From assembly GCA_030692375.1 (NCBI GenBank), contig JAUYCD010000171.1, forward strand, positions 1-32,883: 32,883 nt of DNA, in the 5' to 3' direction. Numbering within the stretch: position 1 is the first letter of the stretch; each line of letters starts with the position of its first letter. Below are positions 8,439-32,567 of the stretch, one piece after another. A program made the position numbers and the translations under genes. The notes under the pieces are model-generated. The model searched no databases. It was not told the origin of the DNA and saw nothing but the letters and a program-made list of their open reading frames with translations. The DNA is from Candidatus Latescibacter sp. GTDB taxonomy: Bacteria > Latescibacterota > Latescibacteria > Latescibacterales > Latescibacteraceae.

Positions 8439-9047
8439 TTACCACTTTTCATAATGGATGTTTGTCGGGTCCCACTTATCCTTGGGTTTTTCCTCGCCGG
8501 TGGGATAGCCGATGGAGATGATGTTGAGCGGCTGGACCTCCGCCGGAAGCCCTAGCACCCGCTTTACATATTTGGTCGGCTCGACGTTAAGCCAAATCCC
8601 GGTCCAGACTGCGCCAAGCCCGATGGCTTCGGCGGCCAGCAGGATATTTTCAGATGCGGCGGAGCAGTCCTGGATCCATACTTCGCTCTTCAGCCCCTTC
8701 CGGGTGTCGCCGCAGACCACGATGGCGGCTTTGGCCCCAGCGAGTACCCTGGTACCCCGGGTGGAAAACGAGAGGGTATCGAGCATGGCGCGCCCGGTCA
8801 CCACGACGAACGCCCAGGGACGTTTATCTGCGGCGGTGGGGCTGGCCATCCCGGCGCGGAGAAGGATTTCAAGCTGGTCTTTGGTCACCGGCTTGTCCAG
8901 GTACTTCCGCACGCTTTTCCGGCTGTGAATGACAGTCAATGCATCCGGAATTTTTGTTTTTTCCTGGGAGAATACTGTGAGTGGGAAAGCCGAAAACACG
9001 AAAGAAACAAGGACAAGAGAAAGGAATACTGCGCGCACCGCTTTCAT
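8439..9047 (-). CDS. Exported nitroreductase-family flavoprotein (paralog 2)
   Basis: 202 aa. A Sec signal peptide (MKAVRAVFLSLVLVSFVFSA...VFSQ) precedes a nitroreductase core with 'SRKSVRKYLDKPVTKDQ', 'ASPTAADKRPWAFVVV', 'WIQDCSAASENILLAAEAIG' and 'IISIGYPTGEEKPKDKWDP'. It is collinear with, and very similar to, the paralog at 4834-5433; differences concentrate in the signal peptide and the middle loop ('RGTRVLAG' versus 'PYTKHIAQ'). ATG at 9047 has GGAGG upstream; the longer in-frame start at 9071 would put charged residues before the signal peptide. Function is inferred to be NAD(P)H/FMN-dependent reduction in the envelope; cofactor loading outside the cytoplasm is unexplained. Confidence 0.88.
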   Translation of the reverse strand: MKAVRAVFLSLVLVSFVFSAFPLTVFSQEKTKIPDALTVIHSRKSVRKYLDKPVTKDQLEILLRAGMASPTAADKRPWAFVVVTGRAMLDTLSFSTRGTRVLAGAKAAIVVCGDTRKGLKSEVWIQDCSAASENILLAAEAIGLGAVWTGIWLNVEPTKYVKRVLGLPAEVQPLNIISIGYPTGEEKPKDKWDPTNIHYEKW

Positions 9048-9524
9048 GGCTGCCTCCAGGGATAAAACCACTTTAATTTCTGAAGCGAGGGAATATTTAC
9101 CAAGAATATGCAGAAGCGGCGCTTATTAGTCAAATAAAATCATCATTTGAAAATATGCATGAGAGCCATCATTTTCACTTCTCAAATCCCTGCATTCTTT
9201 ATATCTTAATCAACGCCGGGTTCATCGGATAATACTTCTCTTTGACCCGATATATTTTTTTGTTGCTTATCGAGTTAACTCAGTTTGTTGAATAATACGA
9301 GTAAATAAAAGGCCTCACCCCCTGGCCCCCTCTACAACAAGTTAGAGAGGGAGAAACCCATCAGCAATTTTCTAAGGCATTGTTTATAAAGCACATCTGG
9401 GTCTTCCCCTCTATTGCGTGCAAGAGAGGGGATTATGGGGTGAGTTAAAAGCGGTAAAAATTTATATCAGCTTGCTGTCTAACCTTGATAAGCGATTTTT
9501 TCTTTCCTGTGAAAGGACACCTTC
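9048..9524. other. Intergenic region with a palindromic repeat element
   Basis: No gene is seen in these 477 bases between divergently oriented genes, so promoters for both sides should lie here; none is clear enough to mark. The notable content is the repeat at 9314-9444. Confidence 0.4.
9314..9444. repeat. Palindromic intergenic element with CTCACCCC...GGGGTGAG ends (copy 1)
   Basis: Terminal CTCACCCC (9314-9321) and GGGGTGAG (9437-9444) are inverted. Inside are hairpins such as CCCCTCT (9406-9412) with AGAGGGG (9425-9431). A related element with the same ends is at 15574-15674. It is non-coding and MITE-like in form, with no transposase nearby. Confidence 0.6.
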
Positions 9525-16520: not shown

Positions 16521-19500
16521 ATGGCAAAGCACAAAGAAAGTAAAAGCAAAGCTGTATCGAAACCGGAAAAAACCAGCACATTGGCTCCTCCCTATTTCCT
16601 TGTTCTCAGCTTCTTTTTCATCTCCGGAATGACGGGTCTTATCTATGAGATTCTCTGGATCCGGATGATAGTTAAAATTATCGGGAGCTCGCCGTTCGCG
16701 GTCAGCATCGTGCTTACTGTATTCATGGGTGGTCTGGGTCTGGGGAGCTATCTGGCCAGCCGGTATATAGACCGGCATAACACTCCCCGTGAGCTGGTGA
16801 AAATATACGGCGTTCTGGAACTTGTGATCGGGGTATACGGTTTGGTTTTGCCGGTGCTGCTCATCCTTTTCAAGCCATTGTATGCATTCCTGTACAATCA
16901 CCTGTTCGGGTACTTTCTGTTCTATAATCTCCTGACTTTTTTGGGATGCTCGTTTCTGCTCATCCTGCCGGTGACCTGTATGGGCGCTACCCTGCCGGTT
17001 TTAAGCCGCTTCTATGTAACCAGGCTCTCCCGCATCGGCGCCTCGCTCGGACGTCTGTACAGTATCAATACCATCGGCGGAGCGCTCGGCGCCCTTTTTT
17101 GCGGATTTTGGATCATTAATTTCTGGGGAGTATGGGGTTCCCTGGCATTTGCCATCCTCTTGAATATCACCATAGGGCTTTCCAGCATCTATCTGGCATC
17201 AACCCTGAAAAAAGGCCCGGTTCCTTTGGCTTTCGAAGCGCCATCGGCGAACGACAAACCATACTATGCTTCGGCTATCGGCGCCGGGGCGCTGGTTATT
17301 TTCGCCGTATCCGGTTTCTGTTCCATGGCCTATGAGGTGATCTGGACAAAACTCCTTGGGCTGATTGTCGGACCTACCACTTACTCTTTTACCGTGGTGC
17401 TGGTGACCTTCATCACCGGGCTTGCGGTGGGAAGCATGCTGTTCGGATGGCTGGCCGACAGGACAGGGAAACCTGGCCCCCTCCTTCTCTTTTCCCAGAT
17501 CGCCGCGGCTTTGAGCGCTCTCTTCATCAGTCAGGTGCTGGGGAACAGCCAGGCATTCTTCGCCAAACTCATCTTCTCCTTCAAAGATAATTTCACTCTG
17601 CTCATGATGATAAAATCAGGCGCACTATTTTCCTTTATGTTCTTACCCACGGTGTTTCTCGGCGCTACATTTCCTCTGGTGGGGAAACTGTATACCCGTT
17701 CCCTCGGCTCTGTGGGAAAATCCATCGGTTTTGCCTATTCCATCAATACTGCTGGCGCGGTGCTCGGCTCATTCTGCGCCGGATTTATCCTTATCCCTCT
17801 CCTGGGAAAGGAACACAGCCTGAGTCTGCTCACTACCTTACAGCTTACCACGGTTCTGGTTGTCGGAAGCATCATGTACGCGAAAATCCTCAGGAAGGCT
17901 GCCTTGATCCCACTGGCGCTGGCTGTCCTGATAGGAGGCATGGCCGCCGTTTATTATCCGCATTGGGACCGTTTTCAGCTCTCCACCGGGAAATATCATC
18001 GGTTTAATGCTCCCTGGCTGAATGGATTGGGATGGATGGAGGCGCTGTTTAAAGGCAATGAAAAAATTGCCGCACCGCTCAAGGGGGAGTTAGTCTATTT
18101 TGGAGACGGAATAGGGGGGTTCACCACGGTAATTAAATATGTCGATTTTATCGGAAAAGTTCAATACAACCTGTACAACAGCGGCAAGGCTGATGCTTCA
18201 ACCCAACCGGCGGATATGTCCACCCAGACTCTTTTAGCACATTTCCCCCTTCTCTTCCATCCCGATCCGAAACGGGTTCTGGTGCTTGGCCTTGCAAGCG
18301 GAATTTCCGCCGGAGAGGCTCTCTTTTATCCCATCGAAAAGCTGGATGTTATCGATATCAATCAGCAGGTAGTGGCCGCAAGCGACTTTTTCCGCCCCTG
18401 GAACAACAATGTTCTGTCAAACCCGAAGACCGAACTCATCGTTCAGGACGGCCGTGCTCACATGGAATTGACCAACCGAACCTACGATGTGGTCATTTCC
18501 GAGCCTTCCAACCCGTGGATGGCCGGGTTGGCTTCCCTGTTCACCCGTGATTTCTTCGAACTGGTCAAAGACAGACTGAACAATGACGGCATTTTTGTAC
18601 AATGGCTTCATTCGTACCAGATCGACTGGGCGGATTTTGCGCTGATCGGGAGGACATTCCATCAGGTTTTCCCCAACAGCATCCTGGTCTGTACCGGCCT
18701 TTACGGTACAATTCCCGATTACATTCTGGTCGGTTTCAAAGGGAATCATGGACTGGATATACAAACAGCGGTTAAGAACTTTCCCAGCAGCCGTAAATCC
18801 GGAAATATGGTTCTCAATAATCCCCTCCTGCTCTATGCTCTCATTGTCGGCGAAAATCTGGGAAAACTATTCGGAGAGGGTCCTATCAACACCGATAATC
18901 GGCCGATGCTGGAGTTTTCAGCACCCAAGATGGTGCATACCATTGATCCCACGATCCCGTCACGGATAGCGGAGGAGGGATTGCTGAGCCGTCAAACGCA
19001 GAGCGTTGTCAGTGAAATCAATGCCAATGTGGACTCACAGATAGATAAGGCCGTTTTTACACTTTCGTTCAACAACCCCTTCAAGGATATGGTCGACCTC
19101 GCCAAAGCCACTCCGGAACAAAAAGTACGGTATGCCGCTGTTCTATCAGATTACTGCTCCAAAAACCTGGTGGAAGATTTTTCTTTCATCAGCGACCCGG
19201 AATTACTGAAAATGTGTATCATGGCGCAGATCGGGGCCATGCAGAAAAAACTCGCTGCCTCGCCGGAGAAGGACCGCCTTCTCACTCATCTGGGAAATAT
19301 GTATGGTTTATTGAAACAGCCCCAGGAATCTGCAAACATTTTCCGCCAGGCGATAGCCGCCAATCCTCGATATGACAAGGCGTACTTCAATCTGGGAATT
19401 GCCCTCTCCGAACTGAATCAACTCGATGAATCCACCAGTATGTACCGTAAGACGATTCAAATCAACCCCTCTTATGCCAGAGCATACCATAATTTGGGAA

Positions 19501-19691
19501 ACAACCTGGTCCGCCAGGGAAACCTTGGGGAAGCGGCTGAGAAATACCGTCAGGCGCTTTCCTTAGACCCCGGATATGCCCCTACTCACCGGAACCTGGG
19601 GGTTGTTCTTAAAAGATTGGGCCGGACTGCCGAAGGGGAGAGACTTATAGAAGAGGCGGCAAGAATCGGTCAAAATCCGGTGAAGATGTGA
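16521..19691 (+). CDS. Fused membrane (MFS-like) / spermidine-synthase-like / TPR protein, paralog 1
   Basis: 1056 aa. Residues about 24-475 are a polytopic membrane domain built from two similar halves: 'GMTGLIYEILWIRMIVKIIG' (36-55) parallels 'CSMAYEVIWTKLLGLIVGPT' (267-286). Residues about 520-750 form a Rossmann domain like spermidine synthase: 'VLVLGLASGISAGE' for the nucleotide, D612 in 'LDVIDINQ', D643 in 'QDGRAHME'. The catalytic Asp motif of true spermidine synthases is replaced by 'ISEPSNPW' (E661), so aminopropyl transfer is doubtful. From about 915 there are three to four TPRs ('AYFNLGIALSELNQLDESTS' and so on) for protein contacts. It follows the SDR gene by 27 bp and is followed after 36 bp by paralog 2. 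Function unknown. Confidence 0.9.
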   Translation: MAKHKESKSKAVSKPEKTSTLAPPYFLVLSFFFISGMTGLIYEILWIRMIVKIIGSSPFAVSIVLTVFMGGLGLGSYLASRYIDRHNTPRELVKIYGVLELVIGVYGLVLPVLLILFKPLYAFLYNHLFGYFLFYNLLTFLGCSFLLILPVTCMGATLPVLSRFYVTRLSRIGASLGRLYSINTIGGALGALFCGFWIINFWGVWGSLAFAILLNITIGLSSIYLASTLKKGPVPLAFEAPSANDKPYYASAIGAGALVIFAVSGFCSMAYEVIWTKLLGLIVGPTTYSFTVVLVTFITGLAVGSMLFGWLADRTGKPGPLLLFSQIAAALSALFISQVLGNSQAFFAKLIFSFKDNFTLLMMIKSGALFSFMFLPTVFLGATFPLVGKLYTRSLGSVGKSIGFAYSINTAGAVLGSFCAGFILIPLLGKEHSLSLLTTLQLTTVLVVGSIMYAKILRKAALIPLALAVLIGGMAAVYYPHWDRFQLSTGKYHRFNAPWLNGLGWMEALFKGNEKIAAPLKGELVYFGDGIGGFTTVIKYVDFIGKVQYNLYNSGKADASTQPADMSTQTLLAHFPLLFHPDPKRVLVLGLASGISAGEALFYPIEKLDVIDINQQVVAASDFFRPWNNNVLSNPKTELIVQDGRAHMELTNRTYDVVISEPSNPWMAGLASLFTRDFFELVKDRLNNDGIFVQWLHSYQIDWADFALIGRTFHQVFPNSILVCTGLYGTIPDYILVGFKGNHGLDIQTAVKNFPSSRKSGNMVLNNPLLLYALIVGENLGKLFGEGPINTDNRPMLEFSAPKMVHTIDPTIPSRIAEEGLLSRQTQSVVSEINANVDSQIDKAVFTLSFNNPFKDMVDLAKATPEQKVRYAAVLSDYCSKNLVEDFSFISDPELLKMCIMAQIGAMQKKLAASPEKDRLLTHLGNMYGLLKQPQESANIFRQAIAANPRYDKAYFNLGIALSELNQLDESTSMYRKTIQINPSYARAYHNLGNNLVRQGNLGEAAEKYRQALSLDPGYAPTHRNLGVVLKRLGRTAEGERLIEEAARIGQNPVKM

Positions 19692-19727
19692 AAACCGTAA
19701 CTGGTAAAAAGGCGAAAGGAATGCAGC

Positions 19728-22700
19728 ATGGCAAAACGCCAGGCTCAAAAAAATAAAATCCAGGCAAAATCGGAAGCGCAGGACAGGTTCAAAATACCCT
19801 ATTACCTTGTTCTGTGCTTCTTTTTCATATCCGGAATGACCGGCCTCATCTATGAGATCCTGTGGACCAGGATGATAGTTAAGATCATCGGAAGCGCCCC
19901 GTTTGCAGTGAGCATCGTACTCACCGTGTTCATGGGTGGTCTGGGGCTGGGGAGCTACCTGGCCAGCCGCTCTATCGACCGTCTGAAAACACCTGGGGCG
20001 CTGGTGAAAATTTACGGCATTCTGGAATTGACTGTCGGCGTGTACGGTCTGGTTTTGCCGGCGCTGCTCGTTCTTTTCAAACCGCTCTATGCGCTCCTGT
20101 ACAACCATCTGTTCGGGCATTTTCTGGTCTATAATCTCTTGACTTTTTTAGGATGCTCGTTCCTGCTCATCCTGCCGGTGACCTGCATGGGCGCCACCCT
20201 GCCGGTTTTGAGCCGGTTTTATGTGACCAGCCTCTCCCGGATCGGCGCCTCTCTCGGGCGCCTGTACAGTATAAACACCATCGGGGGAGCGCTCGGCGCC
20301 CTTTTCTGCGGATTCTGGATCATCAATTTCTGGGGAGTGTGGGGTTCCCTGGCTTTTGCCATACTGCTCAATACCGTCATCGGGCTTTCCAGCATCTACC
20401 TTGGTACGCGAAAACCGGGTGACGGCATCCCACGGGAAAGGGATGAGCCTTCCGGCGCCAGGCAGCCGGAGTATGCCCGGATGATTGGGATTGCGGCGCT
20501 GGTTATTTTCGCCGTATCCGGCTTCTGTTCCATGGCCTACGAAGTGATATGGACAAAACTCCTGGGGTTGATCGTCGGGCCTACCACCTACTCTTTCACC
20601 GTGGTGCTGGTAACATTTATCACCGGACTTGCAGCGGGAAGCATGTTTTTCGGATGGCTGGCCGACAGAACCGGGAAACCGGGCTTTCTCCTTGTTGCCA
20701 CCCAGATCGCAGCGGCTGTAAGCGCTCTCTTCATCAGCCAGGTGCTGGGGAGCAGCCAGACATTCTTTGCAAAACTTATTTTTACCTTTAAAGACAATTT
20801 CACCCTGCTCATGATGGTGAAATCTCTTACGCTGTTTTCGTTTATGTTATTTCCAACTTTTTTCCTTGGGGCCACGTTTCCGTTAGTTGGCAAACTCTAT
20901 ACCAGATCTCTCGACGCTATAGGAAAATCGATCGGATTTGCCTATTCGATCAACACACTCGGCGCCGTTTTGGGTTCTTTCGCAGCCGGTTTTGTTCTCA
21001 TACCGCTCCTGGGAAAGGAACACAGCCTGAGCCTGCTCGCCGTAATGCAGCTTTTCACTATCCTTATCGCCGGGGGTATCATCACGGTAACGGCCCGGAA
21101 GAAGGTAGCCTTATTGGTACCGTTAGTGCTTGCCGTTCTGCTCGGTATTATGGCCGCCGCATACTATCCGCACTGGGATCGGAGGCTGCTTTCTATCGGG
21201 AAATATCAACGGTTTGACAAACCGATGCTGAACAGTATGGGATGGTATGAGTCGCTCGGTAAAGGTAATCAAAAGATGGCCGCCAAAACGTCAGAGCAGC
21301 TGGTTTTTTTCGGGGACGGAATCGGCGGATTTACCACCGTTATGAAATTCATCAATATCGACGGGAAAATTGATTTCAGCCTTTACAACAGCGGAAAAGC
21401 GGACGCCTCAACCATGAAAATGGACATGACCACCCAGATCCTCCTGGCTCATTTCCCGCTGCTCTTTCATCAAAGCCCGAAACAGGTGCTTGTTCTCGGT
21501 CTGGCCAGCGGAATCACTGCCGGAGAAACATTATATTATCCTATTGAAAAACTGGATGTAATCGATATCAATCAGCAGGTTGTCGCTGCCAGTAACTTTT
21601 TCCGCCGGTGGAACAACAACGTGCTTTCGAATCCAAAAACCGAACTCATCGTACAGGACGGCCGCGCCCATATGGAACTGACCAGGCGGAAGTACGATGT
21701 TGTTATTTCCGAACCATCCAATCCCTGGATGGCCGGTCTGGCCACATTGTTCACCCGGGAATTTTTTGAACTGGTCAAAGAAAGACTCAATGACAAAGGC
21801 GTATTCGTACAATGGGTTCATTCATACCAGATGGATTGGGACACGTTCACTCTGATCGGCCGGACATTCCATGCCGTGTTCCCGAACTGCAAACTTGTCC
21901 GCACCTCGGATGTCTTTCCCGATTATCTGTTGATCGGTTTCAAAGGTGACGGCGGCCTGGATATGGGTACAGCGGAAAAAAACATGCAATATGCAATAAA
22001 ATCTCCCAATATGGTTCTTCTCGATCCTCGAGTGTTTTACGACCTTATCGTAAACGAAGATTTTGAAAAACTCTGCGGCCAGGGCCCGATCCATACCGAT
22101 AACCGGCCACAGTTGGAGTTTTCGGCTCCCCGGCTGATGTATCTTGAAGATTTCACCATCCGTGATAATCTGGTAAAGAAAAGATGGCTGACACCCGGAA
22201 CCGAGAGGATAATTCGCGAAGTCTATTCCGATGTCAATGCCCAGATCGATAAGGCTGTTTTAACACTTTCATTCAACACTCCGCTTCCGAACATGGTTGA
22301 TCTTTCGAAAGCATCTCCCGAACAGAAAGCGCGGTACTCCGCAGTTCTTTCCTCCTACTGCTCCGAGAACGTGGTGGAAGATTTTACCTTCATCAGCGAT
22401 CCGGAATTACAGAAAATGTGCATATCGGCCCAGATAGAAGCGATGCAGAAAAAGATCAACACCGTGCGGAATAAGGATCGTCTCTTTTCACATATTGCCA
22501 ATCTGTATAACCTGCTGAAAATGCCCCAGGAAGCGATAAGTTATTACACCCTGGCGATCGAAACCAATCCTCGCAACGAAGTTGCATATATCAATCTGGG
22601 GAATCTCCTCGCCGAACAGGATCTTTTCGATGAAGCGATCCGGATGTACCGGGAGGCGGTTCAGATCAATCCTCTCTATGCCAAATCTTTTTATAACTGG

Positions 22701-22901
22701 GGATGCCTTTTGGCCCGTCAGGGAAAACTTGTCGAAGCGGAAGAGAAATTACGCCGCGCGCTCTCCCTGGACCCTGAATTCGCCCTTTCACACCGTTCCC
22801 TGGGGGATGTTCTTACAAAACTTGGTAAATCCGCCGAAGGGAATGAACATCTCGAGGAAGCGGCGAAGCTCGGCCAGAACCAGTCAACTGCTGTAAAATA
22901 A
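19728..22901 (+). CDS. Fused membrane (MFS-like) / spermidine-synthase-like / TPR protein, paralog 2
   Basis: 1057 aa, the same architecture as its neighbours: two-half membrane domain, SpeE-like domain ('VLVLGLASGITAGE', 'LDVIDINQQVV', 'QDGRAHMEL', 'ISEPSNPWMAGLATLF') and C-terminal TPRs ('AYINLGNLLAEQDLFDEAIR'). It starts ATGGCAAAACGC with a basic, lysine-rich first 20 residues. It is the most divergent copy in its second half ('GWYESLGKGNQKMAAKTSEQ', 'YQMDWDTFTLIG'), while its first ~150 residues nearly match paralog 3 and residues about 150-225 match paralog 1. The gene closes the first part of the cluster; a HEPN-MNT pair follows. Confidence 0.9.
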   Translation: MAKRQAQKNKIQAKSEAQDRFKIPYYLVLCFFFISGMTGLIYEILWTRMIVKIIGSAPFAVSIVLTVFMGGLGLGSYLASRSIDRLKTPGALVKIYGILELTVGVYGLVLPALLVLFKPLYALLYNHLFGHFLVYNLLTFLGCSFLLILPVTCMGATLPVLSRFYVTSLSRIGASLGRLYSINTIGGALGALFCGFWIINFWGVWGSLAFAILLNTVIGLSSIYLGTRKPGDGIPRERDEPSGARQPEYARMIGIAALVIFAVSGFCSMAYEVIWTKLLGLIVGPTTYSFTVVLVTFITGLAAGSMFFGWLADRTGKPGFLLVATQIAAAVSALFISQVLGSSQTFFAKLIFTFKDNFTLLMMVKSLTLFSFMLFPTFFLGATFPLVGKLYTRSLDAIGKSIGFAYSINTLGAVLGSFAAGFVLIPLLGKEHSLSLLAVMQLFTILIAGGIITVTARKKVALLVPLVLAVLLGIMAAAYYPHWDRRLLSIGKYQRFDKPMLNSMGWYESLGKGNQKMAAKTSEQLVFFGDGIGGFTTVMKFINIDGKIDFSLYNSGKADASTMKMDMTTQILLAHFPLLFHQSPKQVLVLGLASGITAGETLYYPIEKLDVIDINQQVVAASNFFRRWNNNVLSNPKTELIVQDGRAHMELTRRKYDVVISEPSNPWMAGLATLFTREFFELVKERLNDKGVFVQWVHSYQMDWDTFTLIGRTFHAVFPNCKLVRTSDVFPDYLLIGFKGDGGLDMGTAEKNMQYAIKSPNMVLLDPRVFYDLIVNEDFEKLCGQGPIHTDNRPQLEFSAPRLMYLEDFTIRDNLVKKRWLTPGTERIIREVYSDVNAQIDKAVLTLSFNTPLPNMVDLSKASPEQKARYSAVLSSYCSENVVEDFTFISDPELQKMCISAQIEAMQKKINTVRNKDRLFSHIANLYNLLKMPQEAISYYTLAIETNPRNEVAYINLGNLLAEQDLFDEAIRMYREAVQINPLYAKSFYNWGCLLARQGKLVEAEEKLRRALSLDPEFALSHRSLGDVLTKLGKSAEGNEHLEEAAKLGQNQSTAVK

Positions 22902-23020
22902 ACCGGGGGCAGCTCATCTGATCTGATATTTAAAAGGCTTGTGAAAAGGTCTTTTATTTGATTAATTATAACTTGACAGGATACATCCATAAAAGTGGCA
23001 ATTGTTATTACAGGCATCCA

Positions 23021-23320
23021 ATGACCCCCAACATGCAACGTAAAATAACCCGTGCAGCCGCCGCATTGAAGTCATACGGTGCTATCGAGGTGTATATCTT
23101 CGGATCGCTTGCGGAAGGAACGTTCACACGGGATTCCGATGTTGACATGGCAGTGAGCGGGCTGCCGCCTGGTGTGTTTTTCAGGGCTTTGGGTCATGCC
23201 CACGAGATTCTCGGGCGGCCTGTTGACTTAATAGACCTTGATGATGGGAGTCTGTTTTCGGAATACCTGAAAAAAGAAGGGCTTCTTCTCCATGTCGACC
23301 ATATTGAGAAAAGAAATTGA
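23021..23320 (+). CDS. mntA: MntA-like nucleotidyltransferase antitoxin (HEPN-MNT system)
   Basis: 99 aa, a minimal nucleotidyltransferase. 'YIFGSLAEGTFTRDSDVDMAV' gives the complete GSx10DxD motif (G28-S29, D40, D42) that binds ATP and metal. In HEPN-MNT pairs this enzyme silences the HepT ribonuclease by adding AMP to a tyrosine. ATG at 23021 is chosen to begin close to the fold; ATG at 23033 or TTG at 22958 are also possible, and no candidate has a strong ribosome-binding site. Its last 29 bases overlap hepT, so translation is coupled. Confidence 0.88.
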   Translation: MTPNMQRKITRAAAALKSYGAIEVYIFGSLAEGTFTRDSDVDMAVSGLPPGVFFRALGHAHEILGRPVDLIDLDDGSLFSEYLKKEGLLLHVDHIEKRN

Positions 23321-23759
23321 AATACAGTTGGCAGAATTAAGGCATTTTATAGAAACTTACGATAAATTACTGGGGAATGAATATAAAGGTGATCCTGGTG
23401 ATATAGTTACTATTGCTCTTGCCGCTATCCTCCATTCGTTTTATACGGGAATTGAAGGGATTTTTAAACGAATTGCCAAACGAATAGACGAAACTTTACC
23501 TAAAGGAACGGATTACCATGCACGATTGCTAGAGATGATGTCGAAGCCTAGCAGCCAACGACCTCAGGTAATTTCCGAATCTCTCTCCCGAACACTTAAA
23601 CAATATATGGATTTTCGTCATATGTTTCGGCATGCGTACGCTAATTTCCTGGTTTGGGACAGGATGGAACCGCTTGTATACGAATGCAAGAACTCCTTTC
23701 ATCAGTTCGAAGCAGAGTTGATGGATTTTCTAAAGAAAATCGAAACACCAGAGCAATAA
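23292..23759 (+). CDS. hepT: HepT-like HEPN ribonuclease toxin (HEPN-MNT system)
   Basis: 155 aa, all-helical. 'DFRHMFRHAYANFLVWDRM' contains R109-x4-H114-x-Y116, the exact Rx4HxY motif of HepT toxins: Arg/His are the RNase site, and Tyr is the residue AMPylated by MntA. 'LAAILHSFYTGIEGIFKRIAKRID' is the typical helix of this subgroup, which resembles the longer HepT-like proteins. It cleaves RNA when free and is held in check by the overlapping mntA product. The pair serves as plasmid-type stabiliser or phage defence in other bacteria. ATG at 23292 lies inside mntA; a TTG at 23304 is an alternative. Confidence 0.9.
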   Translation: MSTILRKEIEIQLAELRHFIETYDKLLGNEYKGDPGDIVTIALAAILHSFYTGIEGIFKRIAKRIDETLPKGTDYHARLLEMMSKPSSQRPQVISESLSRTLKQYMDFRHMFRHAYANFLVWDRMEPLVYECKNSFHQFEAELMDFLKKIETPEQ

Positions 23760-24074
23760 CCCTGCAAAGGAGTGTCCACCGCACAATCTCCCTGAAGTTA
23801 ACCTCGGGGTCGTGATGGTGAACCGGGACTGCTTCCCGGCGAAGAGGAAGCACGGGAAGTAGGCGTATTACGGGCGGAAGGGGTAATTGTGCAAGAGGCG
23901 CTTGCATCAATGAATCGAGCACTGGCTTTTCTGTATTCCCGCCATCTCGCGATACCGTTTGGGCGTTCAGCTCGATGGTTTGAATTGTATTTTACAATGA
24001 GTTGAGTCGAAGAGCGGAACTCCGGTTCTGTCTCCGGGTGTTGGGCGCTCTTGCTATTAAGGAAATCATAAGCC
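23760..24074. other. Intergenic region between hepT and the glycoside hydrolase
   Basis: No gene is called in these 315 bases. One plus-strand frame is open from 23802 to a TGA at 24003-24005 (67 codons) but lacks a start codon with a ribosome-binding site and has no recognised similarity; it may be a decayed gene tail. A lone GTTGGGC (24040-24046) resembles an integron core but has no attC arms. Confidence 0.35.
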
Positions 24075-25487
24075 ATGAAACCCATCCATCTTGCCGTTCT
24101 GGCGCTCGCCGTTCTTCAGTGCGCCCCGTACAATGCTCTTCGCGGCGGTCCCGCCGTGCCAATTTCTTTGCATCCTGGTAACCCGCACTACTTTCTCTTC
24201 CGTGGCAAGCCCACGGTGCTGATCACCTCCGGCGAACACTATGGCGCGGTGCTCAATCTGGATTTCGATTATGTTCCTTATCTGGACGAGCTAAAAGCCC
24301 ACGATCTCAATCTCACGCGCACCTGGGTGGGAACCTACCGTGAGATTCCCGGCTCTTTCAAGATCACCGACAATACGCTCGCTCCCCACCCAAACCGGTA
24401 TATATGTCCGTGGGTCCGGAGCACCACCCCCGGATATTTCGACGGCGGCAACAAGTTCGACCTCACAAAGTGGGACGACCATTATTTCAAGCGCCTGAAG
24501 GATTTCATGACTCAGGCTTCCAGGCGCGGCATCGTGGTTGAGCTGAATCTCTTCTGCCCCAACTATAACGATAATCTCTGGGGTGCGAGCCCGATGAACG
24601 CCGCCAACAACATCAACGGGATTGGGGGCTGCCCAAGCACCGAGGTCTACACGCTGAAGCACAAGGATCTTGTCGACATCCACGAGACGGTCACTCGGAA
24701 GATCGTTCAGGAGCTGCGCGGCTTCGACAACCTCTATTACGAGGTATGCAACGAGCCTTACTTCGGCGGGGTAACTCTGGAGTGGCAAAACCATATCGTG
24801 GATGTGATCGTGGACGCCGAAAAAAAACTCCCGCGAAAACACCTGATCTCGATGAACATCGCCAATGGCCGGGCGAAGGTCGCGAACCCTCATCCGAACG
24901 TTTCCATTTTTAATTTCCACTACTGTGTTCCCCCGGACGTGGTCGAGATGAACTACGGCCTTAATAAGGTCATCGGCGAGAACGAAACCGGTTTCCGCGG
25001 GAAGAAGGATGTAACCTACCGTACCGAGGGATGGGAGTTCATCATCGCCGGAGGCGGCTTGTATAATAACCTGGATTATTCGTTCACTTCCAAACACGCC
25101 GACGGTTCGTTCATGGATTACAAGTCACCAGGCGGCGGCAGCCCTGAGTTGCGTCACCAGCTCAGCATCCTCAAGGACTTCATCCACAGTTTCGACTTCA
25201 TTCGCATGGCCCCCAAGAATGCTGTCATTAAGGGGGGAGTCCCGAAGGGTGCGACGGCTCGGGCTTTGATGGAATCGGGCAAACAGTATGCGCTCTACAT
25301 CAACGGTGGTAAACAAGCAGACCTGAAACTGGAGCTCCCGGCGGGGACGTATGTCATCGAATGGCTCGACACCAGGATCGGCGCAATCGTCAGAAACGAG
25401 AAATTGCAGCACCCGGGAGGAGTCGTCGCGCTCCGTTCGCCGGAATATTCCGAGGACATCGCACTGAGGATAAAGGCGTCCCAATAA
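24075..25487 (+). CDS. Secreted glycoside hydrolase-like protein (clan GH-A type, with C-terminal beta domain)
   Basis: 470 aa. The N-terminus (MKPIHLAVLALAVLQCAPYN) is a signal peptide; the Cys at 16 might be lipidated, but the lipobox is poor. Residues about 30-370 look like a (beta/alpha)8 barrel: 'DNLYYEVCNEPYF' has the N226-E227-P228 triad with E227 as acid/base, and 'VIGENETGF' (E302 or E304) is a likely nucleophile. The last ~90 residues ('QYALYINGGKQADLKLELPA...VIEWLDTRIG') resemble the small beta domain (Collagen_bind_2 type) following DUF4038-like hydrolases. It probably cleaves a plant or microbial polysaccharide outside the cytoplasm; the substrate is unknown. A weak AAGGA lies upstream of the ATG. 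Confidence 0.8.
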   Translation: MKPIHLAVLALAVLQCAPYNALRGGPAVPISLHPGNPHYFLFRGKPTVLITSGEHYGAVLNLDFDYVPYLDELKAHDLNLTRTWVGTYREIPGSFKITDNTLAPHPNRYICPWVRSTTPGYFDGGNKFDLTKWDDHYFKRLKDFMTQASRRGIVVELNLFCPNYNDNLWGASPMNAANNINGIGGCPSTEVYTLKHKDLVDIHETVTRKIVQELRGFDNLYYEVCNEPYFGGVTLEWQNHIVDVIVDAEKKLPRKHLISMNIANGRAKVANPHPNVSIFNFHYCVPPDVVEMNYGLNKVIGENETGFRGKKDVTYRTEGWEFIIAGGGLYNNLDYSFTSKHADGSFMDYKSPGGGSPELRHQLSILKDFIHSFDFIRMAPKNAVIKGGVPKGATARALMESGKQYALYINGGKQADLKLELPAGTYVIEWLDTRIGAIVRNEKLQHPGGVVALRSPEYSEDIALRIKASQ

Positions 25488-25662
25488 CAACAATCGTGCA
25501 GTTTCTGTGAGCGGCGCGACGGGCGCGCGCATGTCCTGAACCGGCGATGCGAATGATAATAATGATGGAAAGATCAGACCGAAGTAATATCAGAAGTTAA
25601 TCAAGAGTTTCTCGCCGTGCTGCGGGGTAGCTGGTGATATGTCGGTTGAAAGGAACACCTGT

Positions 25663-26673
25663 ATGACGCGAAAGCAATTTATCGCCGGTTTGGCAACCTC
25701 GTCATTGCTGTTCCCCGGCTCCCATCCATCCCCGGCGGCAACCGAAAAATCGGCGGTGGTCTACGAGGCATTCGATGAAAGGATGGTAAACGGAAACAAG
25801 CCGATCGGAACAAAAGTTGACGAGAAGACAGTCATTGCGGCAGTGAATTCAATTATAAAGAAGATGTCTGGAAAGAATGACATTGGAAAGGCGTGGCAGA
25901 AATTATTGCCGGGTGTCACTCCGCAGTCGAAAATTGCCATTAAACTCAACCTCCTCCATCCGTACAACGGTCCTCAGTTTGCTATACTGAAAGCTGTTGT
26001 TCTCGGCTTAAAATCCATGTTCAAGGATTCATTCCCACCCGGACACATTTTTGCCTTCGATAATACTGCCGATAATATTAGCGGTAGGGTCGATGCAACT
26101 TATGGTCCCGATAATCTCAACGCATTGGGTATTGTGCGGAACCCTGATGAATATACCGGCGATGCGATGACCGTGGCGGGAAAGACCATGTACATTTCCA
26201 AAACGTTAAGCGATGCGGATTACGGCATATGCATGGTTGCCTCCAGACGACATCAATATTTTGCGGGCCAGCTTTCGGGAGTAATCAAAAACATGATGGG
26301 AGCGCTCAGTACAAACACGACGCGCTACGAAGCATTAATGGCGTCCAATGAAGGGGGATTCCATGATAATTCGAACTATGCGGCATATATAGACATGTTT
26401 AAAAACTATATGAAAGACCATCTGCATCTGTATATAGCCGACCATGTTCTGATACCCTTAAACGAAGCGCGGCCATACGTACGAGTGGGAAATAGGATTG
26501 TAATAGGAAAAGACCCGTGCGCTGTTGACACCCGGTCGGTCGATATTCTAAACAGCCTGTTCACCTTTGAGGAAAGTGAAAAACCGACCACAACGGTTCC
26601 AATGGCACTTGCCAAAGCAGGTATCGGGACAATCAAGTACGAACTGAAAACGATTCCCGTCTCTCTCGATTAG
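25663..26673 (+). CDS. DUF362 domain protein with export signal
   Basis: 336 aa. The N-terminus MTRKQFIAGLATSSLLFPGS resembles a Tat signal in layout but has RK rather than RR, so the export route is uncertain. The rest matches DUF362: 'KIAIKLNLLHPYNGPQFAIL', 'SDADYGICMVASRRHQYFAGQLSGVIKNMMG', 'LYIADHVLIPLNEARPYVRV' and 'VIGKDPCAVDTRSVDIL'. The family function is unknown; some members carry [4Fe-4S] ferredoxin domains, which are absent here. ATG at 25663 is preferred: AAAGGA lies eight bases upstream and the signal begins there, while ATG 25639 would prepend 'MSVERNTC'. Confidence 0.82.
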   Translation: MTRKQFIAGLATSSLLFPGSHPSPAATEKSAVVYEAFDERMVNGNKPIGTKVDEKTVIAAVNSIIKKMSGKNDIGKAWQKLLPGVTPQSKIAIKLNLLHPYNGPQFAILKAVVLGLKSMFKDSFPPGHIFAFDNTADNISGRVDATYGPDNLNALGIVRNPDEYTGDAMTVAGKTMYISKTLSDADYGICMVASRRHQYFAGQLSGVIKNMMGALSTNTTRYEALMASNEGGFHDNSNYAAYIDMFKNYMKDHLHLYIADHVLIPLNEARPYVRVGNRIVIGKDPCAVDTRSVDILNSLFTFEESEKPTTTVPMALAKAGIGTIKYELKTIPVSLD

Positions 26674-26685
26674 TCGGAGGCGGAA

Positions 26686-26785
26686 GTTGTCGCATAGCGG
26701 GCATTGGTCAGTGCCGAGGAGAACGGAAGGGATTTGTCCGCAGGGCAGAAGTATTCTCCGAAGCCTGCTGACCAGAGGAGACAAC
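26686..26785. promoter_or_regulatory. Long imperfect stem-loop upstream of the cupin gene
   Basis: Nested inverted segments: GTTGTC (26686-26691) with GACAAC (26780-26785), TGGTCAG (26705-26711) with CTGACCA (26768-26774), and GGAGAA (26718-26723) with TTCTCC (26754-26759). They enclose a 30-nt loop. It lies in the 218-bp gap between the DUF362 and cupin genes and could be a structured leader or processing site. No known riboswitch is recognised. Confidence 0.45.
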
Positions 26786-26891
26786 CGTAATAACGAATGC
26801 AGGCTCACAAAGGAGTATACTACCTTGATCCACTGATGAAAACCGGTGTTGGAACTGTCCATAATCAATCCCATGAAAAAGGAGTCGTTAC

Positions 26892-28580
26892 GTGAAAAAA
26901 CTTCTGGTACTACTGTTGGCGCTTTCTTTTCCCATTGTCGCTTATGCGCAGGAAAAAGGTACGCTCGACCTGTACAATCTCGACGTGAAACCGTTCGATC
27001 CGGCGGTCGATCCTGACGGCGCACTGTTCGTGAAAAACTGGAAGGATTCGGTAAAACGTACCGTATTCGGCGCCCTTTCAGAGTGGGATATCCTCACCCC
27101 GTGCGATGGTACTTCCGAGCGCCCGAAAACCCGCGGCGCCGTGCTGACAGCTATTAAAAGGCTTACCTACGGCGTTTTAAATCCGGGGAAAACCACCACT
27201 CCTGCCGTTTTGAAAGATGAGCAGAAAATCTTCTATTTCGTTTCCGGAAACGGAACCCTGGCCGGAGATAAAAAGTCCACGGAAGTTCGGGAAGGCATCG
27301 GGGTGGTCGTTGCTCCCGGCATCAATTTCACTATAAAAAACACGGGTAAAGATCCCCTCGCCATGTATATCATCACAGAGCCTATTCCTGCCGGTTTCAA
27401 GCCGAACACAGAAATCGTGGTCAAGGACGAACGAGGCACCAGGTGGTCGAGCAACAACGTTCACTGGAGCCATAACTACAAGAATTTCCTCACCGCAAAG
27501 GATGGTCTCGCGGTTATTACCGGCATGGGCCCCGTATGGTATTTACCGGAGACCATCGGACAGCCTCATACTCATGGCGACCCGTCCGAAGAAATCTGGT
27601 TCGCCCTCAGCGGCGACACAACTCTCCTTCTCGGCAAGCAATTCTTCCACCTGCCCCCCGGCGCCGGGTACAAGATTCCTCCCACCGGCTTCACCGGTCA
27701 TGCAAACATCAATGCTTCCGACAAACCCATCAAAATGTTCTGGTTGATGCGCAACGTAAAAACCGATAAAGTAGGATTCAAATACGGGCAGCTCGATCCG
27801 AAACCGTACGATCCCAAGACCGAATCCCATATTGACATGTTCATTTCCGGCTATAAAGAGCACATGCAATTTTCCACCCACGGCACCTTGCTGGAGCGTC
27901 CCATCTTCACCCATAATGGCGGCGACGCCGCCAGTCCGACCGACCGCGGAAGCGTCCTCAAATACCTCGACCGTTTCACCTATGCCATGCTTGTGGAAGG
28001 CGACCGAACAACGCCGACCACTTTGAAGGACACCCAGGAACTCTATTATATCCTGGAAGGAAAGGGCATAGTGACCGGCGGCGGAAAGACGTATAATCTC
28101 TTCCCCGGTGCGGCTTTCATGGTTCCGGCGGGCCTTGAATTTGTCATGGAGAATACCACCGGCGCTCCCATGACCATGTTTCTCGCGGCTGAAAAGGTCG
28201 ACGAGTCCTTTAAACCGGTCAAGGAAATTGTCTGGCGTGATGAGAATGTGGAGAAGTTCCACACCACGAATTCCCACTGGGTTCACAATAACAAGTGGCT
28301 TATACAAAAAAAGGAGGGACTCTCCAAAATCGACCTGTTCCTCACAGTCACCCTTCTGCCGGATACATTTGCCCAGCCGCACAGCCATGATCCGGGCACC
28401 GAGGAGATATGGGCGCCCATCGACGGCGCGGTTAACTTTATGCTGGGGAAACAGCTCCGGAAAATGGATGTAGGGGAAGCGTACCTCATTCCCCCGGACA
28501 GCAAGACTCCGCACGCCAATTTCAACCAGAGCAAGAAACCCGTTAAAATGCTGTATATCGGTCTGTTCAACCAGAAATAG
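26892..28580 (+). CDS. Secreted protein with four cupin modules (duplicated bicupin)
   Basis: 562 aa. Signal peptide MKKLLVLLLALSFPIVAYA, cleaved before QEK. Two homologous halves (about 24-295 and 296-562) each hold two cupin modules. Modules 1 and 3 ('VLKDEQKIFYFVSGNGTLAG' and 'TLKDTQELYYILEGKGIVTG') lack metal histidines. Modules 2 and 4 keep them: PHTHGDPSEE (H226, H228, with H270) and PHSHDPGTEE (H497, H499, with H541). So each half pairs a structural and a probable metal-binding cupin. The role may be enzymatic or sugar/ligand binding in the envelope. The start is GTG at 26892 with AAAGGAGT upstream. It ends 15 bp before paralog 3, so the two are probably co-transcribed. Confidence 0.88.
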   Translation: MKKLLVLLLALSFPIVAYAQEKGTLDLYNLDVKPFDPAVDPDGALFVKNWKDSVKRTVFGALSEWDILTPCDGTSERPKTRGAVLTAIKRLTYGVLNPGKTTTPAVLKDEQKIFYFVSGNGTLAGDKKSTEVREGIGVVVAPGINFTIKNTGKDPLAMYIITEPIPAGFKPNTEIVVKDERGTRWSSNNVHWSHNYKNFLTAKDGLAVITGMGPVWYLPETIGQPHTHGDPSEEIWFALSGDTTLLLGKQFFHLPPGAGYKIPPTGFTGHANINASDKPIKMFWLMRNVKTDKVGFKYGQLDPKPYDPKTESHIDMFISGYKEHMQFSTHGTLLERPIFTHNGGDAASPTDRGSVLKYLDRFTYAMLVEGDRTTPTTLKDTQELYYILEGKGIVTGGGKTYNLFPGAAFMVPAGLEFVMENTTGAPMTMFLAAEKVDESFKPVKEIVWRDENVEKFHTTNSHWVHNNKWLIQKKEGLSKIDLFLTVTLLPDTFAQPHSHDPGTEEIWAPIDGAVNFMLGKQLRKMDVGEAYLIPPDSKTPHANFNQSKKPVKMLYIGLFNQK

Positions 28581-28595
28581 GATAGAGTAAACGCC

Positions 28596-31500
28596 TTGGC
28601 TAAACACAAAACGAAAAAAAACAAAACCCTGGCGAAAACGGAAGCACAGGACAAGTTCAAAATGCCCTATTTCCTTGTTCTGTGCTTCTTTTTCATTTCC
28701 GGGATGACCGGCCTCATCTATGAAATCCTGTGGACCCGGATGTTAGTAAAGATCATCGGAAGCGCCCCGTTTGCAGTCAGCATCGTATTGACCGTATTCA
28801 TGGGCGGGCTTGGTTTGGGGAGTTATCTGGCCAGCCGCTTCATTGACCGTCTGAAAACACCTGGTGAGCTGGTGAGGATTTACGGCATTCTGGAGTTGAC
28901 TGTCGGCGCGTACGGTCTGGTTTTGCCGGCGCTGCTTTTCCTTTTCAAACCGCTATATGCGCTTCTGTACAACCATCTGTTCGGGCATTTTCTGGTATAT
29001 AATCTCCTGACGTTTCTGGGCTGTTCGTTCCTCCTCATCCTGCCTGCGACCTGCATGGGGGCTACGCTGCCTATTCTGAGCCGTTTTTATGTGACAAAGC
29101 TCTCCAGTATCGGCGCCACTCTGGGGCGCCTTTACAGTATAAACACCATCGGAGCGGCAGCCGGTTCGCTTTTCTGCGGATTCTGGATCATCAATTTCTG
29201 GGGTATATGGGGTTCCCTCGCTTTTGCCATACTGTTGAATGCCTTTATCGGGCTTTCCAGCATGTATCTGGGGTCAATCCTGAAAGAGAGTGGGGCATTT
29301 CAGGCAGATACGGAAGCCTCCCCTACGGGAAAACCCTTTTATGCCCCGGTTATTGGCGCCGGAGCGCTGGTCATCTTTGCCGTATCAGGCTTCTGTTCCA
29401 TGGCGTACGAAGTGATTTGGACGAAACTCCTGGGGCTGATTGTCGGCCCAACCACCTATTCTTTCACCGTGGTGCTGGTAACCTTTATCACCGGTCTTGC
29501 GCTGGGAAGCGTGCTGTTCGGTTGGCTGGCCGATAAAACGGGAAAGCCCGGCGCTCTTCTGCTCTATACCCAGATCGCAGCGGCGGCAAGCGCTCTCTTT
29601 ATCAGCCAGATACTGGGAGAGAGCCAGGTATTTTTCGCAAAGCTCATTTATACGTTCAAAGACCATTTCACACAGCTCATGATGGTAAAATCAATTATTC
29701 TCTTTTCATGCATGTTTTTACCTACCGTGTTTCTCGGCGCGACATTCCCCCTGGTCGGAAAACTGTATACCCGCTCCATCGGAGCGGTGGGCAGATCGAT
29801 CGGATTCGCTTATTCCATAAATACTCTGGGCGCCGTTCTCGGTTCATTCTGCGCCGGGTTTATCCTGATACCTCTCCTGGGAAAGGAACTCAGCCTGAGC
29901 CTCCTCGCCGTCATGCAGCTCGTTACGGTTCTGGTTGCCGGAAGTATTATATTTTGGAAGACCCGGAGAAAAGCTTCAGCATATGCCCCCCTGATACTCA
30001 CAGTCCTGGCAGGATGCCTGGCTGCTACGTACTATCCCCACTGGGATAGGAAACTCCTTGCCACGGGGAAATATGAGCGGTTTGATACACCTGTGCTGAA
30101 CGGGATGGGATGGATGGAGGCGCTGTTCAAAGGCAATAAAATAATTGCCGAGGGATTCAAGGGGGAGATAGCCTATTTCGGAGATGGGATAGGTGGGTTC
30201 ACCACAGTGATCAAAGACACAGATTTTATCGGGAAAGTCGAGTACAATTTATACAACAGCGGCAAGCCGGACGCTTCAACCCAGCCGGCAGATATGCCTA
30301 CCCAGACCCTTTTGGCCCATTTTCCGCTTCTCTTCCACCCTGATCCGAAACAGGTTTTGGTACTCGGCCTTGCCAGCGGAATCTCTGCCGGAGAGGTTCT
30401 TTACTATCCCGTTGAAAAACTTGATGTTATCGATATCAACCAGCAGGTTGTTGAAGCCAGCAATTTTTTCCGCCCTTGGAATAACAACGTTTTATCAAAT
30501 CCCAGGACCCAGCTTATCATCCAGGACGGCCGCGCTCACATGGCATTGACAAACCGAACCTACGATGTGGTTATTTCCGAACCTTCAAATCCCTGGATGG
30601 CCGGTCTGGCTTCCCTGTTCACCAGCGATTTTTTCGAGATGGTAAAAGAAAGGCTCGAGAGAGACGGAATTTTCGTGCAGTGGATTCATTCTTACCAGAT
30701 CGACTGGGCGGATTTTGCCTTGATCGGGAGGACATTCCACAAGGTATTTCCCAACAGCATCATGGTCAGCACAGGATTATTCGGCTCGGTGCCGGATTAC
30801 ATGCTGATCGGTTTTAACGGGAACAGGGGGCTGGATATGGATGCGGCGATTAAAAATTTTACTTACAGCCGTAAATCCGGAAACATGGTTCTCACAAATC
30901 CCCTGGTATGTTATTCTCTCATTGTTAACGAAGATCTGGGAAAATTGTTCGGCGAGGGCACTGTCAACACCGACAGCCGGCCCCTGCTGGAGTTTTCCGC
31001 GCCTAAAGTGATGCATTACAATGATAACACAATCAATGCGCGGATTGCATCGCAGAGTTGGTTGAGTCCGAAAACAGCGAATGTGATCCGGGAGTTCACT
31101 ACGAACATCGATGCCCAGATCGACCGGGCTGTTTTCAGCCTCTCTTTCAATAGTCCGACCCGCGATATGGTCGACCTTGCAAAAGCCTCTCCCGAACAGA
31201 AAGCACGGTATGCTGCAATCTTGTCAGATTTCTGTTCCAAAAACATTGTTCAGGATTTTTCATTCATCAGCGACCCGGAGTTCCAGAAGATATGTATCAC
31301 GACACAAATCGAAGCGATGAAGAAAAAAATCGATACCCGGCATGAGAAGTATCGCCTCTATTTTCATTTGGCAAATCTGTATCTCCTGCTGAAAAATTCC
31401 GAAGAAGCTGAAAACTATTACCGCAAGTCGATTGCGGCAAATCCCCGCTACGACAGGGCATATTTCAACCTTGGAAACGTTATCTCCGAACAGAACCGCC

Positions 31501-31778
31501 TTGATGAATCAGAAAGCCTGTACCGTGAGGCGATTCGAATCTATCCGTATTATGCCAAGGCATACCACAATTTAGGGAATGTACTGGTCCGCCAGGGAAA
31601 GCTGGAAGAAGCGGCGGAGAAATTCCGCCGGTCGCTTGCATTGGATCCCGGGAATGTCCAGTCACACCGGAATCTTGGGTTTGTACTAAAAAAATTAGGC
31701 AGGATAGCCGAAGGGGAGAGGCACCTTGAAGAGGCGGCGCGGCTTTCGGAAAATTCACCCGGCGCATCACCGCGATAG
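28596..31778 (+). CDS. Fused membrane (MFS-like) / spermidine-synthase-like / TPR protein, paralog 3
   Basis: 1060 aa. It has the same three-part layout: membrane domain with duplicated 'GMTGLIYEILWTRMLVKIIG' and 'CSMAYEVIWTKLLGLIVGPT', SpeE-like domain ('VLVLGLASGISAGE', 'LDVIDINQQVVEA', 'ISEPSNPWMAGLASLFTSDF') and TPRs ('AYFNLGNVISEQNRLDESES'). It starts with TTG at 28596, giving MAKHKTKKNK, which matches the ATG starts of its paralogs. Its first ~150 residues are closest to paralog 2, but the second half ('GWMEALFKGN', 'STQPADMPTQTLLAHFPLLFHPDPK', 'YQIDWADFALIGRTFHKVFP') is closest to paralog 1, a mosaic pattern. It lies 12 bp before the DUF268 gene. Confidence 0.9.
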   Translation: MAKHKTKKNKTLAKTEAQDKFKMPYFLVLCFFFISGMTGLIYEILWTRMLVKIIGSAPFAVSIVLTVFMGGLGLGSYLASRFIDRLKTPGELVRIYGILELTVGAYGLVLPALLFLFKPLYALLYNHLFGHFLVYNLLTFLGCSFLLILPATCMGATLPILSRFYVTKLSSIGATLGRLYSINTIGAAAGSLFCGFWIINFWGIWGSLAFAILLNAFIGLSSMYLGSILKESGAFQADTEASPTGKPFYAPVIGAGALVIFAVSGFCSMAYEVIWTKLLGLIVGPTTYSFTVVLVTFITGLALGSVLFGWLADKTGKPGALLLYTQIAAAASALFISQILGESQVFFAKLIYTFKDHFTQLMMVKSIILFSCMFLPTVFLGATFPLVGKLYTRSIGAVGRSIGFAYSINTLGAVLGSFCAGFILIPLLGKELSLSLLAVMQLVTVLVAGSIIFWKTRRKASAYAPLILTVLAGCLAATYYPHWDRKLLATGKYERFDTPVLNGMGWMEALFKGNKIIAEGFKGEIAYFGDGIGGFTTVIKDTDFIGKVEYNLYNSGKPDASTQPADMPTQTLLAHFPLLFHPDPKQVLVLGLASGISAGEVLYYPVEKLDVIDINQQVVEASNFFRPWNNNVLSNPRTQLIIQDGRAHMALTNRTYDVVISEPSNPWMAGLASLFTSDFFEMVKERLERDGIFVQWIHSYQIDWADFALIGRTFHKVFPNSIMVSTGLFGSVPDYMLIGFNGNRGLDMDAAIKNFTYSRKSGNMVLTNPLVCYSLIVNEDLGKLFGEGTVNTDSRPLLEFSAPKVMHYNDNTINARIASQSWLSPKTANVIREFTTNIDAQIDRAVFSLSFNSPTRDMVDLAKASPEQKARYAAILSDFCSKNIVQDFSFISDPEFQKICITTQIEAMKKKIDTRHEKYRLYFHLANLYLLLKNSEEAENYYRKSIAANPRYDRAYFNLGNVISEQNRLDESESLYREAIRIYPYYAKAYHNLGNVLVRQGKLEEAAEKFRRSLALDPGNVQSHRNLGFVLKKLGRIAEGERHLEEAARLSENSPGASPR

Positions 31779-31790
31779 TTGAGGCAGAAC

Positions 31791-32567
31791 ATGAGGAAAT
31801 TCAAAAGCACACCCTATAATCTGGCTTACCTGGCTTTCAGGTGGATACAGCCTTTTTTCAATCCGATGGAGTTTTTCCCGGCTTTTCCCCGGTATATCCG
31901 GTATTTCCGGGACTGGTTACGGTATTCGAGGATGAATGGGGCGGAATCGATTCGATTCAGCGATACATATCCCTGCATCCATGAACGAACCCCTGCTACC
32001 GGTTTCGACAGGCATTACTTTTACCAGGATATTTGGGCGTTTAGGAAGATTGTTGCCTCTGGCGCCGGCGCGCACGTTGATATCGGCTCACGGGTGGATT
32101 ATGTCGGTTTTCTCACCGCAGTCACCCATGTCACCTTCATCGACATCCGCCCGCTCGAAGCGGCGCTTGAAAACTTCGAGTCGAAAAAGGGGAGCATCCT
32201 GGCCATACCCTTTGAGGACAGATCGATACCGTCCCTATCCTGCCTGCATGTGGCCGAGCATATCGGTCTCGGGAGGTACGGAGATCCACTCGACCCCTAT
32301 GGGACTCAGAAAGCCTGCCGTGAGCTGTCACGGGTTCTCGCGCCCGGCGGAAATCTCTATTTCTCGCTTCCGGTGGGGAAGCCCCGGCTCTGTTTCAACG
32401 GGCAGCGTATCCATTCACCGGGACAGATTCTCGAATATTTCAGCGGCCTACGGCTGGTCGAGCTTTCCGGGATAAACGACGATGTGAAGTTCACTCAGAA
32501 TATCGACAGGTCTGTTCTGGAAAACGCCGATTATGGCTGCGGGCTTTTCCATTTTACAAAAGACTGA
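31791..32567 (+). CDS. DUF268 family methyltransferase-like protein
   Basis: 258 aa. 'HVDIGSRVDYVGFL' (about 95-108) resembles SAM motif I, 'TFIDIRPLE' a following acidic strand, and 'LSCLHVAEHIGLGRYGDPLD' (about 149-168) is the DUF268 signature, followed by 'ELSRVLAPGGNLYFSLPVG', typical of class I methyltransferases. DUF268 genes often occur among glycan or envelope-biosynthesis genes; no substrate is known. The ATG at 31791 has GAGG six bases upstream; a TTG at 31779 would add four residues. With the third large paralog just upstream, the two form a transcriptional pair. Confidence 0.85.
   Translation: MRKFKSTPYNLAYLAFRWIQPFFNPMEFFPAFPRYIRYFRDWLRYSRMNGAESIRFSDTYPCIHERTPATGFDRHYFYQDIWAFRKIVASGAGAHVDIGSRVDYVGFLTAVTHVTFIDIRPLEAALENFESKKGSILAIPFEDRSIPSLSCLHVAEHIGLGRYGDPLDPYGTQKACRELSRVLAPGGNLYFSLPVGKPRLCFNGQRIHSPGQILEYFSGLRLVELSGINDDVKFTQNIDRSVLENADYGCGLFHFTKD

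Follow-up and report, generated by a model that had tools for sequence, protein, structure and literature searches.

Three paralogous genes on one strand of a 32,883-nucleotide stretch of Candidatus Latescibacter sp. DNA (contig JAUYCD010000171.1, positions 1 to 32,883; hereafter the window) each encode a protein in which a major facilitator superfamily (MFS) domain is followed by a domain resembling the spermidine synthase SpeE and by a tetratricopeptide repeat (TPR) tail. The explanation that best accounts for our data, with a probability of roughly 0.5, is that each protein is a 13-helix MFS-type transporter carrying an outward-facing SpeE-fold domain and TPR tail as a transport-coupled module and that one laterally acquired ancestor duplicated in place to give the trio. 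The family, already catalogued but uncharacterised, has been amplified locally here. What is new is a re-tooled active site in a genome without a source of decarboxylated S-adenosylmethionine (AdoMet), together with converging evidence for an outward location; this location may already have been treated by Li et al. 2019.

Domain organization and predicted fold

The three open reading frames (ORFs) were confirmed to be complete and to lie on the same strand within 15 kb (copies A, B and C; Table 1). The proteins share 71 to 75% pairwise identity over their whole length and have the same domain order. Profile searches matched all three to PF01564 and several TPR families and to NF037959 ("fused MFS/spermidine synthase"), the latter with scores of 117.6, 118.7 and 119.7 bits, the curated threshold being 40 bits. 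For copy A, an AlphaFold2 model based on 52 homologues had a mean predicted local distance difference test (pLDDT) score of 89.4, and its middle part matched aminopropyltransferase crystal structures in Foldseek with a probability of 1.00. When the membrane part was modelled alone (pLDDT, 90.6), MFS transporters were matched, also at a probability of 1.00, with OxlT giving the highest TM-score by target (0.71). These matches identified the "two-half" membrane domain of a preliminary description of the locus, made from the sequence alone, as an MFS fold. The 12-helix pseudo-twofold arrangement is present, while transport itself is predicted from the fold. Overall, these analyses bore out the preliminary description of three large three-domain paralogues that are membrane proteins ending in a TPR tail.

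Two Protein Data Bank (PDB) entries titled "spd-bound" and "spm-bound" (9d7v and 9d7x) ranked 7 and 9 among the fold matches of the membrane domain. These matches may hint weakly at a polyamine-like ligand, MFS folds matching one another broadly. Known MFS transporters (OxlT, FLVCR and the Rv1410 homologue MHAS2168) resemble the first 456 residues in fold but have no fused SpeE or TPR domain and are 12 to 18% identical in sequence to the trio. NF037959 shares the order of MFS and SpeE domains with the trio, but its 480-position model describes a half-MFS form, whereas the MFS domain of the trio is complete, with 12 helices, and is joined by a 13th helix and a TPR tail.

Exchange of the SpeE-like active site

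The trio was aligned to the sequence of Thermotoga SpeE, whose numbering is used here for positions 76 to 173. D101, D170, D173, Y76 and H77 were found to be replaced by S, E, N, T and Q, respectively, and hence the catalytic and second aspartates of the DSTDP motif and the tyrosine of the YHE motif are absent. As the preliminary description had noted, the catalytic motif reads ISEPSNPW in all three copies, the three coding matches comparing with approximately 0.01 expected by chance. The GGGDGG loop reads GLASGI in copies A and C and GLASGIT in copy B. The residue exchanged for serine is its aspartate, D101, which pairs with the decarboxylated AdoMet amine and holds it. This loop departs from the GGG(D/E)G(G/A) signature, described as highly conserved among tested aminopropyltransferases (PMC11107197). 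The ribose-contacting acid (E121 in Thermotoga and D612 here) and the adenine-contacting acid (position 153 and D643 here) are retained. The earlier statement that the nucleotide-binding residues remain was thus correct for these two acids but not for the loop. The structure prediction and pocket comparison that it had proposed likewise yielded SpeE and MFS folds and the nucleoside-binding acids, but the residues that hold decarboxylated AdoMet were found to be exchanged. Stand-alone SpeE proteins encoded near speD in the same carrier genomes kept the aspartates, providing an internal control for the alignment.

The glutamate substitution was not confined to this locus. Among 69 homologous domains, E was present at position 170 in 51, N at position 173 in 57 and S at position 101 in 55; the ribose acid was D or E in all 69 and the adenine acid was D in 68. 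Judged from these alignments, EPSNPW is the standard motif in one clade of NF037959, patchily distributed over several phyla, and is not an accident of the locus. At positions conserved in at least 95% of 33 other clade members, the trio retains 102 of 103 residues in the membrane part and 66 of 71 in the SpeE domain. The conserved pocket set comprises K556, D565, T568, Q569, S593, D612, D643, H647, E661, N664, W666, Y699, D733, D792 and E798, with the motif stretch E661-P-S-N-P-W666 lying within it. This conservation of the surrounding residues argues against a decayed enzyme. E661 is situated just after strand 4, a location occupied by a catalytic or substrate-binding acid in many class I methyltransferases.

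Wider-family members vary further at the catalytic site (GIMDP, VLTPDP and SMPAP). Five additional SpeE-domain proteins are encoded in the same genome, on contigs C7, C18, C62 (two) and C132, and these also differ at this site (NDADVP, LDAYYGD, VEPLQP, MSMPAP and SDPVDP).

Polyamine synthesis context

The genome is 97% complete. AdoMet decarboxylase (AdoMetDC; SpeD, PF02675) was not found in it, the positive control having matched in 8 of 14 genomes; the class 2 enzyme (PF01536) was not found either, with its control silent too, and searches for DUF350 and NspC in this genome were also negative. PF02675 was missing from 8 of 15 genomes with close homologues of the trio, and the four SpeD-bearing carriers that were checked (G100, G101, G110 and G111) encoded a separate SpeE with intact residues near SpeD. 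An ordinary spermidine synthase was rejected on the loss of the aminopropyltransferase signature and the lack of SpeD, in agreement with the preliminary description, which had argued against polyamine synthesis. From its residues, the SpeE domain of the trio is not an aminopropyltransferase of known kind, though its nucleoside pocket is kept. SpeE aminopropyltransferases (e.g., those of Thermotoga maritima and Thermus thermophilus) have the fold and the ribose and adenine acids in common with the trio, but they are soluble, cytoplasmic and usually paired with SpeD and keep the aspartates that the trio has exchanged.

In known membrane fusions linked to AdoMetDC and DUF350, an integral membrane domain is followed by a spermidine synthase (SpdSyn)-like domain, as in the trio; the trio has no SpeD, DUF350 or PspA-type neighbours. 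Li et al. 2019 (Biochem J) reportedly proposed that AdoMetDC-linked MFS-SpdSyn fusions aminopropylate an acceptor other than putrescine. A direct literature search for fused MFS/spermidine synthase proteins returned nothing useful, and it was papers on polyamines and on PspA that provided leads. One of these (PMC12803844) cites Li et al. 2019 as showing that bacterial relatives of fusions between membrane and aminopropyltransferase-like domains have no part in making spermidine or spermine.

Predicted location outside the cytoplasm

AlphaFold2 models placed a further helix (helix 13, residues 459 to 478) after the 12 MFS helices, and in 48 of 52 homologues this segment was hydrophobic with almost no charged residues. 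Lysine plus arginine residues averaged 18.6 in the loops on the N-terminal side compared to 4.6 on the other side, with the same direction of bias in every one of the 52 homologues. A cytoplasmic N terminus (N-in) combined with an odd number of helices would put the chain after helix 13 outside the cytoplasm.

Two other arrangements within the family independently supported this location. In L127, the two MFS halves are separated by the SpeE domain, which has an extra helix on either side, giving 14 helices with clear alternation. The same insertion was seen, with less clean counts, in L118, L111 and a 764-amino-acid protein of this genome (contig C62; L030:11460-13754). A domain held between two extra helices is predicted to lie in an outside loop. 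In split forms, the SpeE-like protein is encoded separately, by a gene adjacent to that for a 6-helix MFS half. Eight such forms were sampled, one on contig C18 of this genome and the other seven in plasmid records of Pseudoalteromonas, Sphingomonas, Xanthomonas, Aeromonas and Pseudomonas. In all eight, the SpeE-like protein began with a Sec-type signal peptide, in which a short run of positive charge was followed by a hydrophobic core and usually by a cleavage site with small residues. L142, a distant relative without a linked MFS domain, had no signal peptide. A 7-helix Peribacillus fusion (L139) counted as N-in with the domain outside, as did L109, tested as the seven-transmembrane PspA-linked form (PMC11237479), which keeps Y, H, D101, D170 and D173 whereas the trio has exchanged its catalytic residues. 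Helix counts were ambiguous for two haloarchaeal fusions. The cysteines C879 and C899 tended to occur as a pair (both in 20, neither in 10 and mixed in 6; Fisher P = 0.0002, uncorrected), an association that was weak among 24 representatives sharing less than 50% identity.

The charge bias, the inserted SpeE domains and the signal peptides of the split forms agree in predicting that the SpeE and TPR domains are extracytoplasmic, which in a cell with two membranes would mean periplasmic. A number of points weigh against this conclusion. The topology is a prediction, and the positive-inside rule and hydropathy counts can fail. Signal peptides were identified by visual inspection and hydropathy, the split forms are only distantly related to the trio and helix 13 is weak or shortened in 4 of the 52 rows. 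Furthermore, AdoMet is not known from the periplasm, and a conserved nucleoside pocket there is puzzling.

The split form on contig C18 (L028:6096-8552) places an exported-looking SpeE-like protein and a 6-helix MFS half next to a class I methyltransferase-like protein with a signal-peptide-like start. This three-gene set is possibly an operon for extracytoplasmic adenosyl chemistry.

Proposed function and alternatives

The conserved pocket and the transporter fold suggest capture or modification of a small adenosyl or cationic ligand at the outer face of the membrane, and we prefer a transport-coupled extracytoplasmic transferase, of which the substrate and the coupling are the tentative parts. 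The MFS part would carry a small molecule, adenosyl-bearing or cationic, through the membrane, the SpeE-fold domain on the outer face would modify or capture this molecule or an acceptor and the TPR tail would dock partners. In that domain, a new, strictly conserved set has replaced the residues by which decarboxylated AdoMet and putrescine are held, while the nucleoside pocket has been kept. A more tentative extension is that a widespread class of transporter-fused SpeE-fold proteins acts at the outer surface of the cytoplasmic membrane, either in adenosyl chemistry with an MFS-delivered donor or in ligand binding.

The preliminary description had implied a transferase or scaffold in the cytoplasm. 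A membrane-anchored AdoMet-dependent transferase facing the cytoplasm (e.g., a methyl- or 3-amino-3-carboxypropyl-transferase) with a TPR scaffold would suit the retained ribose and adenine acids, the abundance of AdoMet in that compartment, the loss through D101S of the partner of the decarboxylated AdoMet amine and the lack of SpeD. It would, however, require an even number of helices or an inverted MFS domain and conflicts with the uniform N-in bias, helix 13, the inserted SpeE forms and the signal peptides of the split forms, and we regard it as unlikely. A non-catalytic outward module, in which the SpeE fold is a sensor or a ligand-binding or gating domain for MFS uptake, agrees with the predicted location, the lost catalytic aspartate and the still greater variation in other family members; the dense, near-invariant polar cluster in the former active site of the trio's clade is more enzyme-like and makes this reading improbable as well. 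A membrane-bound enzyme transferring the aminopropyl group of decarboxylated AdoMet to an acceptor other than putrescine would belong to the same broad family, and aminopropylation of other substrates by systems of this type is discussed in PMC11237479, but with no SpeD, a GLASGI loop and both D170 and D173 changed, it is very unlikely.

Origin and maintenance of the three copies

The trio was monophyletic (support, 100/100), and its sister was a mostly Thermodesulfobacteriota clade (99/98). The EPSNPW pattern was detected in 5 of 64 genomes of the same phylum, with three copies only in this one and near relatives without the trio, and in 13 of 395 Thermodesulfobacteriota genomes, with a maximum of two copies each. 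Multicopy carriers were seen elsewhere, with four pattern matches in G102 and three in G112. The GC content of all three copies equals that of the window, giving no compositional sign of recent transfer, and any transfer would therefore be old. Old lateral acquisition of a single ancestor, followed by local duplication into three copies, is probably the simplest account, the acquisition being the more tentative step; differential loss instead of lateral acquisition is a possible explanation of the distribution.

Pairwise dN/dS values among the copies of 0.14 to 0.17 indicated that all three are under purifying selection. A degenerate pseudoenzyme or pseudogene was rejected on these values and the conserved residue set. 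Chance or an assembly artefact was also rejected, as the copies differ by 25 to 29% in protein and at 58 to 60% of synonymous sites. Identity between copies was 78 to 80% in the membrane part, 68 to 80% in the SpeE domain and 52 to 63% in the tail, which diverges fastest. The suggestion that triplication reflects selection for dosage or different partners gains partial support, in that all three copies are under purifying selection and their fast-diverging tails would fit different partners. A survey of gene neighbourhoods, also proposed in the preliminary description, detected no constant operon partner across phyla among the homologues; recurrent neighbours mainly reflected synteny in Neomarinimicrobiota.

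Other features of the window

Copies A and B are separated by 36 bases. The 5.7-kb interval between copies B and C encodes a nucleotidyltransferase/HepT-like pair, a DUF6298 protein, a DUF362 protein and a four-cupin protein. The pair (22958-23759, + strand), in which the MntA-like nucleotidyltransferase scored below the cut-off, is a probable type VII toxin-antitoxin module. The four cupin domains lie in a secreted-looking protein of 562 amino acids (26892-28580, + strand). The DUF268/methyltransferase-like gene that follows copy C, which probably starts at an ATG a few codons in, is a possible operon mate of copy C; this adjacency was not conserved next to homologues of the trio elsewhere. 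On the - strand, two nitroreductase-family paralogues with signal-peptide-like starts (4834-5490 and 8439-9071) flank an Abi_alpha (PF14337) gene (7517-8212).

Table 1. Features of the three paralogues and the adjoining gene (window coordinates)
Feature	Position	Strand	Evidence
Copy A, 1056-aa MFS/SpeE-like/TPR protein	16521..19691	+	ORF, profile matches, AlphaFold2 model
Copy A MFS domain, 12 helices, residues 23-456	16587..17888	+	AlphaFold2 model, Foldseek match to MFS transporters
Copy A 13th hydrophobic helix, residues 459-478, predicted to put remaining chain outside cytoplasm	17895..17954	+	Models, hydropathy
Copy A SpeE-fold domain, residues 523-805	18087..18935	+	PF01564; Foldseek match to spermidine synthases, probability 1.00
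Copy A ISEPSNPW motif	18495..18518	+	Motif search
Copy A TPR tail, about residues 917-1049	19269..19667	+	TPR profile matches, AlphaFold2 model
Copy B, 1057-aa paralogue	19728..22901	+	ORF, profiles, pairwise identity
Copy B 13th helix (approximate)	21105..21167	+	Homologue helix analysis
Copy B ISEPSNPW motif	21705..21728	+	Motif search
Copy C, 1060-aa paralogue, TTG start	28596..31778	+	ORF, profiles, pairwise identity
Copy C 13th helix (approximate)	29973..30035	+	Homologue helix analysis
Copy C ISEPSNPW motif	30573..30596	+	Motif search
DUF268/methyltransferase-like gene immediately 3' of copy C	31779..32567	+	ORF, profile match

Implications for the family

Many genomes carry genes named "fused MFS/spermidine synthase," and metabolic reconstructions may count these as polyamine synthesis. 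Cytoplasmic polyamine production is probably not the role of the widespread, uncharacterised parent family. If the SpeE-like domain does face outward, the name given by annotation pipelines misleads, and the search would shift away from cytoplasmic polyamine and towards a ligand that is transported and an acceptor in the periplasm or at the surface. The two-gene split forms with signal peptides in culturable Pseudoalteromonas and Sphingomonas offer simple test material. Should the outward-facing class prove real, it would represent a previously unrecognised extracytoplasmic use of an AdoMet-enzyme fold, of which the EPSNPW clade would be one re-tooled branch.

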